This document shows, piece by piece, positions 33,041-43,558 of a DNA stretch of 57,990 nt. Every line of letters begins with the position of its first letter. Positions within the stretch are counted from its first letter, which is position 1. The position numbers were made by a program, and so were the translations under genes. Source of the stretch: a virus; the IMG/VR virus record IMGVR_UViG_3300032093_000153, positions 1 to 57,990 of that record; one strand, written 5' to 3'. The notes below the pieces were generated by a model, which did not search any database, was not told where the DNA came from, and worked only from the letters and a program-made list of their open reading frames with translations.

Positions 33041-33383
33041 GCGAGTATGGTGGAATCGGTAGACACACCAGACTTATGAAAATTGAGCCTCATTTGGGAA
33101 ACCTTATGAGTGTAATTCCTCAAATTCGGTGAAACCTGTAAAATGGCAATACCGAGCGAAGTTGCAAGACAGTTGGAAAGACAACGGCTACCCAATGTGC
33201 TTCTAGAGAGGGTTGGAATTATCTAGAAAATGCAAAACGTGTAGAGACTAGACGGGGAACACCTAAACTGAAAGGTATGGTGAAGGTATAGTCCAGACCA
33301 CAAACCGAAAGGGTAGTGAAAACTATAGTGGTAAGAAAATCTGTTGGGCATTGCCCGTGGGAGTTCAAGTCTCCCTACTCGCA
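33041..33383 (+). tRNA. tRNA-Leu(TAA) interrupted by a group I intron
   Basis: Exon 1 33041-33075 and exon 2 33336-33383 join to acceptor GCGAGTA/TACTCGC, D arm GTGGAATCGGTAGACAC, loop CTT+AAAA and a class II variable arm TGGGCATTGCCCGTG. The splice is between U34 and A35, exactly where cyanobacterial and plastid tRNA-Leu(UAA) introns sit. Confidence 0.93.
33076..33335 (+). mobile_element. Group I intron in tRNA-Leu(UAA), 260 nt
   Basis: Preceded by U and ending in G, as group I introns do. It starts ATGAAAATTGAGCC and contains AATGGCAATACCGAGC (P/Q region) and GACTAGACGGG with GGTATAGTCC (P3/P7/R/S region), the cyanobacterial tRNA-Leu intron pattern. No ORF inside. Self-splicing expected from the core, not shown. 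Confidence 0.9.
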
Positions 33384-38340: not shown

Positions 38341-38414
38341 CGGGATGTAGCTCAACTTGGTAGAGTGCTTGATTTGGGTTCAAGATGTTGCAGGTTCAAA
38401 TCCTGTCATCCCGA
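38341..38414 (+). tRNA. tRNA-Pro(TGG)
   Basis: Acceptor CGGGATG/CATCCCG with the C1-G72 pair typical of bacterial Pro, loop TTTGGGT, T arm GCAGG-TTCAAAT-CCTGT. Confidence 0.92.
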
Positions 38415-39578: not shown

Positions 39579-39651
39579 GGGGTCTTAGCTCAATTGGTAG
39601 AGCATTTGCTTTGCAAGCAAGAGGTTAGGGGTTCGAGTCCCCTAGATTCCA
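39579..39651 (+). tRNA. tRNA-Ala(TGC)
   Basis: Acceptor GGGGTCT/AGATTCC with the G3-U70 Ala identity pair, loop TTTGCAA, T arm TAGGG-TTCGAGT-CCCCT. Confidence 0.93.
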
Positions 39652-39872
39652 TTGTCCAAGAGGATAAGAAGTCTGATGTTTCGGACGGGGTTTCGATTAC
39701 CCCCATCTCCATTACTTGGGGGTGCCAGGTTTCGACGGGGCATAAAGGTCTTATCTGTTGACGGGACAAGAAAACAAACGCAAACAAAATTGTTGCTTTC
39801 TCTCGTCAAACCGCATTGGTTTGAACTAAACGAGTGAGGGGGTTATAAGTTTCCTTCTTACCCAAAACTTAC
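39652..39872 (+). ncRNA. ssrA: Circularly permuted (two-piece) tmRNA
   Basis: The 3' (acceptor) piece comes first: T arm GGGGT-TTCGATT-ACCCC (39687-39703), CATCTCC and A73 at 39711. After the 6-nt spacer TTACTT comes the 5' end GGGGGTG (39718-39724), which pairs 7/7 with CATCTCC, then the conserved CCAGGTTTCGACGGGG. Helix 2 forms between GATAAGA (39663-39669) and TCTTATC (39749-39755). The resume codon GCA at 39780 starts ANKIVAFSRQTALV, ending TGA 39822-39824. Permutation is the arrangement known from Prochlorococcus/Synechococcus. It rescues stalled ribosomes by tagging proteins. Exact 5' and 3' ends are approximate. Confidence 0.9.
39780..39824 (+). other. tmRNA tag reading frame, ANKIVAFSRQTALV
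   Basis: 15 codons including TGA. The tag begins like picocyanobacterial tags (ANKIVSFSRQ.. as I recall them) but ends Ala-Leu-Val instead of the usual Ala-Ala terminus recognised by ClpXP. Confidence 0.8.
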
Positions 39873-39873
39873 A

Positions 39874-39898
39874 AGGAGGTGTAATGCCTCCTATTTTT
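39874..39898 (+). terminator. Terminator after tmRNA
   Basis: AGGAGG-tgtaatg-CCTCCT followed by ATTTTT ends the tmRNA transcript. Confidence 0.8.
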
Positions 39899-39919
39899 GT
39901 GCCTTGTGCCAATATAAGG

Positions 39920-39963
39920 ACTGGCACAAGGCACTTGACATTCCGTCAAAACTTTGTTATGAT
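39920..39963 (+). promoter_or_regulatory. Box promoter ACTGGCACAAG plus TTGACA-17-TATGAT
   Basis: ACTGGCACAAG at 39920, TTGACA 39935-39940, TATGAT 39958-39963; box to -10 spacing 38 nt. Here the module has a full consensus -35. The box forms an inverted repeat with GTGCCTTGTGCCA upstream (39899-39911). It drives the VWA gene 40112 through a ~140-nt leader. Confidence 0.8.
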
Positions 39964-40111
39964 GAATAAGTACTCGATAAAAGATCAGGCAGCAATACAA
40001 TACATTTTCCTTTCAAGAAAACCCATAAAAACTGATCTTGTATTAAAGTTAATTCAGCAACACAACTTTGAATCTGTAAACTCAAAACAACATTAACTTG
40101 GAGAAAAAATT

Positions 40112-41578
40112 ATGACTTTCCTGACCGCACTTGAAACTGAACTGAACACCACTGAAACTCTCAATGGTGCCAAAGCATATAAATCTACTCTCAACAAATG
40201 TGTAGACCTGTTCGGTAAAATCTCTGCCTGTCGTAATGACATTCCACAGGCACGGAAACTATTTGCTCACGCATATATGGAAGACCCTGAGACTGCGACT
40301 CGTATTCTCTTCAATGCCCGTGATATTCGTGGTGGGCAAGGAGAACGTGAAGTCTTCCGTAATCTATTCAAAGACCTTGTGAATGGGAATAGTGAAATTG
40401 CAACTAAACTTATTGAACTCATTCCTGTCTATGGTCGTTGGGATGACCTTCTAATTCTTGAAGGCACTGCTATCTGGGATAATGTTGTGGATGTTATCAT
40501 CACGCAACTTGGTAAAGATGATGTTGCTCTGACCGCAGGGGAGAATGTTTCTCTGCTTGGTAAGTGGATGCCTTCTATCAATGCTTCTAGTGCTGATAGC
40601 AAACGTCTTGGTCGTGTGTTCGCAAAACGTCTTGAACTGAACGAACGTCAGTATCGTAAGTTCCTGACTGCTCTTCGTTTTCAAATTAAAATTGTGGAAC
40701 AGAAGATGTGTTCCAAAGAATGGTCTGAGATTGACTACGAACATCTTCCTTCTCGTGCTGGATTTATGTATCGTAAGGCATTCGCAAAGCAGGATGCTAC
40801 TCGTTACGCAGAATATTTGAGTGCCGTGGAGAAAGGTGATAAGAAAATCAATGCTGGAACCATCTATCCTTATGAGATTGTAGATAAGTATCTCTACAAA
40901 GGTGGCAGTCAAGATAAGACTATTGACCTGATGTGGGAGGCACTGCCTAACTATATGGAAGGTCAAGAACTCAATGGTCTTGTGGTTGCCGATGTTTCTG
41001 GTAGTATGATGGGAACTCCAATGGCAGTTTCTATCTCTCTTGCGATGTATATTGCCGAACGCAATACTGGTATTTGGAAAGATAAGTTCATCACTTTCTC
41101 TGAATCTCCTGAACTTCAATCCATCGTCGGTAATACTATCGGTGACCGTATTCGCAATCTTGCCAGTTCTTCTTGGGGATTCAATACTGACCTCAAAGCA
41201 GTATTTGAAAGTGTTCTGAATGCAGGAATCAAGAATAATGTTCCTGACGCAGAAATGCCTAAGAAACTTATCATTGTTTCTGATATGCAGTTTGACCAAG
41301 CGTGTAGTTCTAACAAACGCACCAACTTTGAGCAAATTCAGAAGATGTATCATAAGGCAGGATATGAGATGCCTGAACTTGTTTTCTGGAATGTGAATGC
41401 GATTGGGGGCAATGTTCCTATAACTATCCACGATACTGGAACTTGTCTGGTTTCAGGATGTTCTCCTTCCATTCTGAAAAGTGTTCTGGGTGGTAAAACT
41501 ATCACTCCTGTTGACGTGATGAAGGATGCGGTGTATGATGAACGTTATGCTCCTATCGGTGAGGCATTCAGTTCCTGA
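40112..41578 (+). CDS. VWA-domain protein (DUF2828/TROVE-like)
   Basis: 488 aa. The N-terminal helical region has ATRILFNARDIRGGQGEREVF and PVYGRWDDLL, the DUF2828/TROVE-like pattern. The VWA MIDAS reads VVADVSGSMMGTPMAVS (~residue 293), with a later IIVSDMQFD. TROVE relatives (Ro60) bind structured RNAs; this gene lies between the tmRNA and the interrupted tRNAs, so an RNA-related role is possible but unproven. Codon choice is less AT-rich than in the decoration cluster. Confidence 0.75.
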   Translation: MTFLTALETELNTTETLNGAKAYKSTLNKCVDLFGKISACRNDIPQARKLFAHAYMEDPETATRILFNARDIRGGQGEREVFRNLFKDLVNGNSEIATKLIELIPVYGRWDDLLILEGTAIWDNVVDVIITQLGKDDVALTAGENVSLLGKWMPSINASSADSKRLGRVFAKRLELNERQYRKFLTALRFQIKIVEQKMCSKEWSEIDYEHLPSRAGFMYRKAFAKQDATRYAEYLSAVEKGDKKINAGTIYPYEIVDKYLYKGGSQDKTIDLMWEALPNYMEGQELNGLVVADVSGSMMGTPMAVSISLAMYIAERNTGIWKDKFITFSESPELQSIVGNTIGDRIRNLASSSWGFNTDLKAVFESVLNAGIKNNVPDAEMPKKLIIVSDMQFDQACSSNKRTNFEQIQKMYHKAGYEMPELVFWNVNAIGGNVPITIHDTGTCLVSGCSPSILKSVLGGKTITPVDVMKDAVYDERYAPIGEAFSS

Positions 41579-41601: not shown

Positions 41602-41631
41602 TTGACAAAACTCCCCAACCTGTAATATAAT
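41602..41631 (+). promoter_or_regulatory. Sigma70 promoter TTGACA-18-TATAAT
   Basis: TTGACA 41602-41607 and TATAAT 41626-41631. It starts the transcript of the hairpins and the four interrupted tRNAs. Confidence 0.8.
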
Positions 41632-41639
41632 AATTTTAT

Positions 41640-41685
41640 AGATGGTTCAGCAATTTTACCCATTTTATAGGAAAAACAACCATCT
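41640..41685 (+). repeat. CAGCAA hairpin element H1
   Basis: AGATGGTT/AACCATCT stem; the 5' strand is followed at once by CAGCAATTTTACC, a small ACC/GG(T) inner stem and AAAAACA. Nearly identical to H3 at 42067. Confidence 0.75.
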
Positions 41686-41693
41686 AGCAAACA

Positions 41694-41762
41694 AAGGTCT
41701 CTCAGCATTTCAATTTTCTCCAAACTCAAATCTGAGACTCTGAAAAACCTCAGTGAGACCTT
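41694..41762 (+). repeat. CAGCA hairpin element H5
   Basis: AAGGTCTC/GAGACCTT outer stem followed by TCAGCATTTC; the interior has CTGAGACTC and further short pairings. Same plan as H1-H3 with a different stem. Confidence 0.55.
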
Positions 41763-41773
41763 GAAAAAACAAA

Positions 41774-41893
41774 GGGAACGTGGTGTAACGGTAGCATTAA
41801 CAAAATCGGTAATCTTGTATAAGATTCGGACAGCAATTTCTATTACTTTTTCTGTAAAAAAAAAAGGTTCAGGTTCGAGTCCTGACGTTTCCA
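41774..41893 (+). tRNA. tRNA with anticodon-arm insert, possibly Tyr(GTA)
   Basis: Acceptor GGGAACG/CGTTTCC, D arm GTGTAACGGTAGCAT and T arm TCAGG-TTCGAGT-CCTGA are intact. A ~48-nt insert (about 41799-41846) lies after the D arm: hairpin AATCTT-gtat-AAGATT then CGGACAGCAATTT. Removing it leaves TTTTT-CTGTAAA-AAAAA, an anticodon arm reading GTA. The short variable region is odd for Tyr, so identity is uncertain. Confidence 0.65.
41799..41846 (+). mobile_element. Intron-like insert in tRNA
   Basis: Contains the ATCTTG..AAGAT hairpin and ACAGCAATTT shared with the other three inserts. Boundaries approximate. Confidence 0.55.
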
Positions 41894-41895
41894 TT

Positions 41896-41941
41896 AGATG
41901 ATTCAGCAATTTACTGCTTGGTTATGCAAACAAAATCATCT
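41896..41941 (+). repeat. CAGCAA hairpin element H2
   Basis: AGATGATT/AATCATCT stem, CAGCAATTTAC after the 5' strand, inner TGC/GCA stem and AACAAA. Covaries with H1/H3: the stem sequence differs but pairing is kept. Confidence 0.75.
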
Positions 41942-41948
41942 AGTTTAA

Positions 41949-42061
41949 AGGAAGGTAGCTCAGTTGGTAGAGCAACGTAAAATATATCTTGCCAAAGATA
42001 TTCACAGCAATTAAACTGCATTGGGGGCCGTTGGTCGCAAGTTCGAATCTTGCCCTTCCTA
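41949..42061 (+). tRNA. tRNA with 40-nt anticodon-stem insert, spliced anticodon TGG (Pro?)
   Basis: Acceptor AGGAAGG/CCTTCCT, D arm GCTCAGTTGGTAGAGC, T arm GCAAG-TTCGAAT-CTTGC. Joining ACG (27-29) to GC (30-31) restores the perfect stem ACGGC/GCCGT around loop ATTGGGG. The insert falls between positions 29 and 30. Pro identity is doubtful because C1-G72 is absent and a normal Pro(TGG) gene exists at 38341. Confidence 0.75.
41978..42017 (+). mobile_element. Intron-like insert, 40 nt
   Basis: TAAAATATATCTTG...CACAGCAATTAAACT; hairpin ATATCTT/AAGATAT then TCACAGCAATTAAA. About 90% identical to the 41-nt insert in the next tRNA. Confidence 0.75.
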
Positions 42062-42066
42062 CTTAT

Positions 42067-42111
42067 AGATAGTTCAGCAATTTACCCATTTTATAGGAAA
42101 AACAACTATCT
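42067..42111 (+). repeat. CAGCAA hairpin element H3
   Basis: AGATAGTT/AACTATCT stem enclosing CAGCAATTTACCCATTTTAT and AGGAAAAAC; differs from H1 mainly by compensated stem changes. Confidence 0.75.
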
Positions 42112-42122
42112 AGAACAAATAA

Positions 42123-42201
42123 GAGATTATTCAGCAACTCCAAAGGATAACGGTTTATCAATAGGTAAACTTAGAGAGAATCGAATCTCTCAAATAATCT
42201 C
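42123..42201 (+). repeat. CAGCAA hairpin element H4 (extended)
   Basis: GAGATTATT/AATAATCTC outer stem, TTCAGCAACTCC after the 5' strand, and an inner hairpin AGAGA-gaatcgaa-TCTCT. Confidence 0.6.
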
Positions 42202-42209
42202 GAAAATAC

Positions 42210-42323
42210 GGGGATGTAGCTCAGTTGGTAGAGCAACGTAAAATATATCTTGTCAAAGGATATTCACAGCAATTAAATCGCATTCTAAGCCGTAAGTTAC
42301 AGGTTCAAGTCCTGTCATCCCCT
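42210..42323 (+). tRNA. tRNA-Arg(TCT) with 41-nt anticodon-stem insert
   Basis: Acceptor GGGGATG/CATCCCC, D arm GCTCAGTTGGTAGAGC, T arm ACAGG-TTCAAGT-CCTGT. Joining ACG to GC gives ACGGC-ATTCTAA-GCCGT, closely like bacterial tRNA-Arg(UCU) (GCAACG..TTCTAA..CGT). The insert lies between 29 and 30. No other Arg tRNA was found in the window, so the gene is probably needed. Confidence 0.82.
42239..42279 (+). mobile_element. Intron-like insert, 41 nt
   Basis: TAAAATATATCTTG...CACAGCAATTAAATC; imperfect hairpin ATATC/GATAT. The boundary is unambiguous because position 30 must be G and only the 3' side supplies it. Confidence 0.78.
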
Positions 42324-42325
42324 TC

Positions 42326-42443
42326 GAGAATGTAGCCCAAATGGCAGAGGCACCGTTTATAAAAAAGTCATCTTGTTGTTAAGATGCGTCAGCATTAAAT
42401 AAAAAGGCACGATCCAGTGTAGGTTCGAATCCTACCATTCTCA
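42326..42443 (+). tRNA. tRNA with ~45-nt insert, Leu-like D arm, anticodon unresolved
   Basis: Acceptor GAGAATG/CATTCTC, D arm GCCCAAATGGCAGAGGC and variable CCAGT as in the Leu genes at 37426 and 39501, T arm GTAGG-TTCGAAT-CCTAC. The insert has CATCTT-gttgtt-AAGATG then CGTCAGCATTAAAT. Exon ends ACCGT and ACGAT pair with one mismatch, so the exact splice and anticodon cannot be fixed. Confidence 0.6.
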
Positions 42444-43018: not shown

Positions 43019-43558
43019 ATGACCGAAAACTACCCCGAGTTCGTTCCTTTTCCTAAGATTCCCCGTCTTCATAAAGAATGTGTAGTTACTGAAAAGATTG
43101 ATGGAACTAATGGTATTATCTACATCACTGACGATGGAGATATGTTTATCGGAAGTCGCAATCGTTGGTTGAGTGCAGAGTCTGACAATTTTGGGTTTCA
43201 TCGTTGGGCATCTGAAAATCAAGATGAACTGATGAAACTTGGTGCTGGTCGTCATCACGGAGAATGGTGGGGTAGTGGTATTCAACGAGGTTATAATCTA
43301 CCCAAAGGTGAGAAAAGGTTCTCCTTGTTTAATGTGAGTATCTGGAATTATGAAAACAAACCAGAGTGTTGCTATGTTGTTCCTACTCTTTATACTGGAG
43401 AGTTTAGCACTAATGAACTTGATGATGCGATGGATAAACTTTGGGATTATGGTTCTGTTGCCTCTCCAGGGTTTATGAATCCAGAAGGTGTGATGATTTT
43501 CCATTCTGCTGCGAATCATTATTTCAAGGCACCTTTTGATAAAAATCATAAGGGTTGA
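43019..43558 (+). CDS. ATP-dependent RNA ligase (Rnl2/Rnl5-like)
   Basis: 179 aa. VVTEKIDGTNGIIY contains the KxDG nucleotidyl-transfer motif (Lys at ~residue 24). Then SRNRW (motif III-like), HHGEWWGSGIQRGY (motif IIIa/IV) and NPEGVMIFHSAANHYFKA (motif V, ending in the usual Lys). The family seals 3'-OH/5'-phosphate RNA nicks through enzyme- and RNA-adenylate. It lies <600 nt after the interrupted tRNAs, so exon joining or repair of cleaved tRNA is a plausible, unproven job. Confidence 0.82.
   Translation: MTENYPEFVPFPKIPRLHKECVVTEKIDGTNGIIYITDDGDMFIGSRNRWLSAESDNFGFHRWASENQDELMKLGAGRHHGEWWGSGIQRGYNLPKGEKRFSLFNVSIWNYENKPECCYVVPTLYTGEFSTNELDDAMDKLWDYGSVASPGFMNPEGVMIFHSAANHYFKAPFDKNHKG

Follow-up and report, generated by a model that had tools for sequence, protein, structure and literature searches.

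The window analysed here is the whole stretch of 57,990 bases of the virus record IMGVR_UViG_3300032093_000153. Its virus likely has a cyanobacterial host, because the stretch carries a tmRNA of cyanobacterial type and a DUF2828 protein near that of Synechococcus phage B23 (67% identity between the two counterparts). The tmRNA gene (39622-39915) overlaps the 3' end of a tRNA-Ala gene and fits the cyanobacterial as well as the permuted tmRNA model. Elsewhere in the window, an Rfam group I intron match (33066-33317) lies right behind a tRNA-Ile(tat) gene. The DUF2828 gene (40112-41578, + strand) encodes a putative Ro60-like protein with DUF2828 and DUF7788 vWA domains (PHROG 850, 'RNA-binding protein') and is followed on the same strand by a cluster of RNA genes, including four tRNA genes interrupted in the anticodon arm, and by an RNA ligase gene (43019-43558, + strand; Pfam RNA_ligase, PHROG 548). 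The ligase is an inconstant neighbour, missing from several DUF2828 phage records, and was rejected as a constant partner because of its patchy distribution.

Seven stand-alone stem-loops with a CAGCAA-type element, absent from the preliminary description of this DNA, were found on the + strand between about 39983 and 42201. Two of them precede the Ro-like gene, namely GATCAG/CTGATC (39983-40037), with CAGCAA behind the 5' strand and TTG behind the 3' strand, and AGTTAAT/ATTAACT with CAGCAA (40047-40098), which ends just ahead of the Ro-like open reading frame. The others are AGATGGTT/AACCATCT (41640-41685), AGATGATT/AATCATCT (41896-41941) and AGATAGTT/AACTATCT (42067-42111), each with CAGCAATT, GGTCTC/GAGACC (41696-41760) with CAGCAT and a TTG behind the stem, and GAGATTATT/AATAATCTC (42123-42201) with CAGCAA and an inner hairpin. 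Consensus matching gave a putative sigma-70-like promoter, TTGACA-17-TATGAT (39935-39963, + strand; 11/12), upstream of the leader of the Ro-like gene and a promoter-like TTGACA-18-TATAAT (41602-41631, + strand; 12/12) upstream of the RNA cluster. The presence of two CAGCAA stem-loops (39983-40098) inside the leader suggests that the Ro-like gene may be autoregulated.

The four interrupted tRNA genes, all on the + strand, gave Rfam tRNA matches of 113-120 nt at 41774-41893 (37 bits), 41949-42061 (52 bits), 42210-42323 (53 bits) and 42326-42443 (36 bits). None of them was called by ARAGORN on the window, and a strict regular-expression tRNA finder gave no useful output. The gene at 41949 (TGG) carries a 40-nt insert (41978-42017) and the gene at 42210 (TCT) a 41-nt insert (42239-42279), both at 29/30. 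Removal leaves ACGGC-ATTGGGG-GCCGT and ACGGC-ATTCTAA-GCCGT, respectively, each with a perfect stem, so that the positions and the restored ACGGC/GCCGT stem with a 7-nt loop given in the preliminary description are exact. These two genes score 108.6 and 111 bits against the R1 model, which includes their L017 homologues. Related inserts had also been claimed for the other two genes; the relationship and the tRNA-model matches hold, but the architecture is less clean. In the gene at 41774 (GTA; R1 model 57 bits) the insert is best placed at 41799-41846, at 26/27, and its removal leaves the anticodon arm TTTTT-CTGTAAA-AAAAA, a looser fit than in 41949 and 42210. The gene at 42326 (R1 model 48.6 bits) has a type B (loop-type) insert and no clear decoding loop, and no placement of the insert yields a clean anticodon arm. 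The inserts had been judged too small for group I or II introns, which were rejected here too, as no Rfam covariance-model match to a group I or II intron core was present at the insert-tRNA loci and the inserts measure 38-57 nt. Rfam matches to Dicty class I RNA, snoRNA and miRNA were dismissed as chance.

The common hairpin followed by CAGCA(A)TT, proposed earlier as the mark of a homologous family, proved to be widespread. DNA similarity and pattern scans recovered >100 distinct insert-tRNA genes from phages (among them B23, BUCT-ZZ01, KVP40, Aeh1, GAP32 and huge phages) and from some bacterial contigs. Their hallmark is an insert hairpin that covaries and is followed by C(A/U/C)GCAA. Decay of the inserts in related phages had been named beforehand as evidence against the preliminary interpretation; the inserts are conserved there. 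Members include the annotated pseudo-tRNAs of 113-124 nt in KVP40 (179304-181841 of the record, L183) and the 122-nt tRNA-Val of Aeh1 (96387-96637, L181), and each of these phages has one unannotated neighbour gene that also belongs to the family. Restoration of the anticodon arm on insert removal is not chance: 51 of 86 insert genes yielded a perfect stem of 5 bp together with U33 and a purine at 37, whereas shuffling of the middles gave 0.4 such genes on average. In an alignment chosen by the letters of the D-stem and CHGCAA, not by covarying pairs, the split anticodon stem is paired in each of its halves in 38/38 genes, with substitutions in either strand, and every pair of the insert hairpin covaries (7/7). 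The acceptor, T, split anticodon and insert stems all covary strongly, with 308 both-sides-changed cells vs 79 after shuffling.

Among the type A genes of the first set (n = 56), some 30 distinct anticodon stems occur with a wide range of anticodons, and the rule for bases 36/37 is obeyed in 56/56 (T-A 40, G-G 10, A-A 5, C-A 1). The first-set U33 figure is partly built in, because the parser ranks placements and counts U33 in favour; the pairing and the 37 rule are unaffected. In a larger set, U33 is retained in 88 of 97 genes, 84 of which also follow the 36/37 rule. Insert removal gives a canonical decoding loop in type A and not in the loop-type (type B) genes, and an interpretation of type B as 33/34 introns was rejected, as U33 and the 36/37 rule fail in most. 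No symmetric structure of the bulge-helix-bulge type is apparent in the family consensus.

In DUF2828 phages that have no insert-tRNAs, the adjoining non-coding stretch mostly holds the same element. Tandem stem-loops with one strand followed by CAGCAA lie by DUF2828 in phages of Listeria, Staphylococcus, Campylobacter, Bacillus, Fusobacterium and Rhizobium, and circularly permuted tRNAs wrapped by the same stem lie by DUF2828 in Mycobacterium phage Faith1 (GTT) and Enterococcus phage TJE1 (GAA). Permuted tRNA-like genes adjoin the Ro-like gene at L182:8951-9320 and L188:1771-2450 (mycobacteriophage and enterococcal phage). The permuted RNAs of TJE1 match the YrlA model (RF02553) with 47.9 and 34.4 bits (E 8e-8 and 6e-4); the Rfam gathering score of 69 bits is reached by no YrlA match, the best values being 47.9 in TJE1 and 25 in the window. 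By its sequence, one element appears to occur in three topologies, embedded in a tRNA, as a free stem-loop and around a permuted tRNA. Felixounavirus JH2 has DUF2828 and no clear element. A long conserved, structured-looking RNA with CTGCAGCAAATTT is also seen behind DUF2828 in three virus contigs (from L038:5234, L040:2825 and L043:1102 onwards).

The AlphaFold model of the DUF2828 protein (mean pLDDT 81) has its best PDB matches in Ro60 (9nf8/9nfa) and Rsr (2nvo), with E-values of 3e-5 to 1.5e-4 and a probability of 1.00 in Foldseek and modest TM-scores of 0.34-0.48. The window protein has Pfam matches to DUF2828 and DUF7788 and none to TROVE, and a MIDAS-like DxSxS is invariant in DUF2828 proteins. 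DUF2828 is thus predicted from the model to be a Ro60-fold protein. It is encoded by 37 of the 44 virus contigs chosen by RNA pattern alone vs 0 of 31 controls, a contrast that is somewhat inflated because the controls, contigs matched by the RNA pattern by chance, are mostly shorter than the test contigs. Most of the seven insert contigs without DUF2828 are fragments. The distance from insert gene to DUF2828, where both are on the retrieved stretch, has a median of 362 bp, which is unaffected by the length bias, and is at most 1 kb in 75 of 88 cases. DUF2828 was also present in 9 of the 10 records first chosen by RNA match; its overall frequency is 680 in 50,697 phage records. All these association counts include related sequences and are uncorrected for kinship.

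A similar arrangement was detected in chromosomes of Nostoc, Pseudanabaena, Phormidium and Leptolyngbyaceae, where insert-tRNAs lie beside a gene with TROVE and Ro60 vWA domains. At 18 cyanobacterial loci, including L387:5139-6110 and L365:5913-6417, tRNA-like genes that carry a structured insert of ~50 nt stand in tandem directly upstream of Ro60, and the Ro60 gene is on the retrieved stretch in 14/18 cyanobacterial insert-tRNA loci. ARAGORN left the insert-tRNAs uncalled in the five loci tested. These loci were found after the motif had hinted at a link to Ro and were then checked. The cyanobacterial insert sequence is unrelated to that of the phages, and the loci appear to be an independent parallel of the insert-tRNA and Ro60 plan.

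On sequence-based evidence, we interpret the inserts, with a probability of about 0.72, as ligand elements of the neighbouring Ro60-fold DUF2828 protein, and the RNAs as un-permuted, tRNA-embedded Y RNAs. The occurrence of the same element in tRNAs, free, or wrapping a permuted tRNA as in YrlA argues for such RNAs. The element would be a short helix, A-rich on one side and with C(A/U/C)GCAA(U) on the other, which in the window forms part of the anticodon arm in RNAs with the shape of a tRNA. The insert helix is expected to be bound by the Ro-like ring, docking on it and presenting the tRNA-shaped module. With the insert kept, the anticodon stem-loop could remain native-like, the insert forming the third arm of a three-way junction, and the insert-tRNAs would probably undergo no splicing. 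Counting against the Y RNA reading, the protein matches DUF2828/DUF7788 and lacks a TROVE match, the TM-scores are modest, and a mimic need not preserve so many different correct anticodons. The YrlA matches below the gathering score, Felixounavirus JH2 and the seven insert contigs without DUF2828 weigh in the same direction.

A rival reading is that of true tRNA introns, in which a phage or host activity cuts the insert and an Rnl2-type ligase or RtcB joins the halves into functional tRNAs; pre-tRNAs of the permuted genes would then be circular, as they are in red algae and some archaea. In its favour, dozens of genes, with about 30 different stems among them, regain a perfect 5-bp stem and a 7-nt loop of canonical form when the insert is removed, L079 and L081 are distinguished by a compensatory base-pair change at the edge of the insert, an RNA ligase gene is present at 43019, split RtcB-like genes occur near DUF2828 in Listeria phage LMTA-148, and the permuted tRNAs of Faith1 and TJE1 have correct anticodon loops. 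However, the restored loop alone is no proof of excision, because a native-like arm could also form with the insert in place. Acceptor identity is relaxed in the insert-tRNAs while the decoding loop is kept: base 73 is canonical in 40/72 (56%) vs 447/471 uninterrupted tRNAs of the retrieved viral loci (95%; p 4e-17), and CCA is encoded in 7/79 (9%) vs 403/936 (43%; p 1e-10), p-values that serve only as guides because the sequences are related. The same element is found with no tRNA, loop-type inserts give no decoding loop, boundary analysis revealed no conserved splice-site sequence, and in some cases an intact tRNA with that anticodon is encoded by the same phage as well (Asn in KVP40 and Aeh1; in the window, a Pro tRNA called by ARAGORN at 38341). 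RNA_ligase and RtcB are not in every DUF2828 phage, and TJE1 has neither. The tRNA-free and permuted occurrences together with the relaxed acceptor ends make a tRNA-shaped Ro ligand a better fit than a spliced tRNA, and leave the new splicing or excision system of the preliminary description unsupported. Splicing is therefore disfavoured and unlikely, and the Y RNA reading is preferred. Slightly less likely again is that the inserts are small tRNA introns of a new class whose removal is aided by the Ro60-like ring and an RNA ligase, and that permuted copies in phages and bacteria mature via circular pre-tRNAs.

The preliminary description had also suggested tRNA-targeting mini-elements, considered here as mobile elements that enter phage tRNA genes at the anticodon arm, and related inserts do occur in several anticodons, tRNA bodies and phage groups. 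Yet they are confined to the neighbourhood of the Ro-like gene, are placed within 1-3 nt and covary with the host stem, no empty and filled allele pairs were seen, and the element also occurs without a tRNA beside the Ro60-like gene, all of which makes this proposal unsupported and very improbable. The least probable explanation is that the genes are pseudo-tRNAs in decay, in keeping with their 'pseudo' annotation in KVP40, Citrobacter phage Ci1 and Ahp1. The annotation and the relaxed acceptor identity agree with decay, but strong covariation contradicts it, and this covariation, with a near-invariant U33 and 36/37 rule in very diverse phages, points to selection.

If the RNAs are Y RNAs, they may, rather tentatively, serve as a bait or a competitor for anticodon nucleases or other enzymes that act on tRNAs. 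Hughes (2020; PMC7790460) has discussed the tRNA-like domain of YrlA as a proposed competitive inhibitor of an anticodon nuclease, and the complete anticodon arms seen here would suit such inhibition better than YrlA's. If true, the Y RNA reading explains the 110-125-nt 'pseudo' or undetermined tRNAs of KVP40, B23, Ahp1 and Citrobacter phage Ci1 as well as the 122-nt tRNA-Val of Aeh1, ties the uncharacterised DUF2828 family to Ro60, and enlarges the Y RNAs, so far one permuted mimic of tRNA, by a large set of un-permuted members whose anticodon arms are complete. The kept anticodon loops and relaxed acceptor ends would allow a test of why Y RNAs imitate tRNAs, one candidate role being anticodon-nuclease bait in phage-host conflict.

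Chen reportedly described Y RNAs of bacteria and phages that lie near Ro60 in 2014, and because of such earlier reports the un-permuted, tRNA-embedded RNAs are of a known kind. The un-permuted form with complete anticodon arms and a DUF2828 partner is apparently new, as we could not find it described; neither a function of DUF2828 nor insert-tRNAs were found in the literature searched, and overlap with the main Y RNA papers (Chen 2014, Sim and Wolin) was judged with the help of PMC8394870 and PMC7790460.

Archaeal and eukaryotic tRNA introns and permuted tRNA genes share with the present RNAs the insert in the anticodon arm and, in Faith1 and TJE1, the permuted order, but here the insert resembles a conserved protein-ligand element, and neither a splicing endonuclease nor processing is indicated. 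The DUF2828 model resembles Ro60/Rsr (TROVE + vWA) in its repeat ring, vWA fold and MIDAS-like DxSxS, whereas the sequence family of the window protein is DUF2828/DUF7788, without a Pfam TROVE match. The Salmonella rsr-yrl-rtcBA RNA repair operon (PMC7790460) likewise combines a Ro-like protein, a tRNA-mimic RNA and, as sometimes here, a nearby RNA ligase; the phages differ in having many insert-tRNAs instead of one or two YrlA RNAs, and inconstant ligases. Like YrlA (RF02553), the window RNAs combine tRNA-like D, T and acceptor parts with a stem, presumed here to bind Ro, that is attached at the anticodon stem, and they are encoded near the gene of a Ro60-type protein, in the window DUF2828. 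The window RNAs differ from YrlA in being un-permuted, with open acceptor ends, the stem carried as an insert, a complete anticodon arm with decoding loop, and a best match of 25 bits vs the cut-off of 69. The permuted order and closed acceptor hairpin of YrlA are found only in the Faith1 and TJE1 relatives, and the permuted RNAs of TJE1 match its model (E 8e-8).
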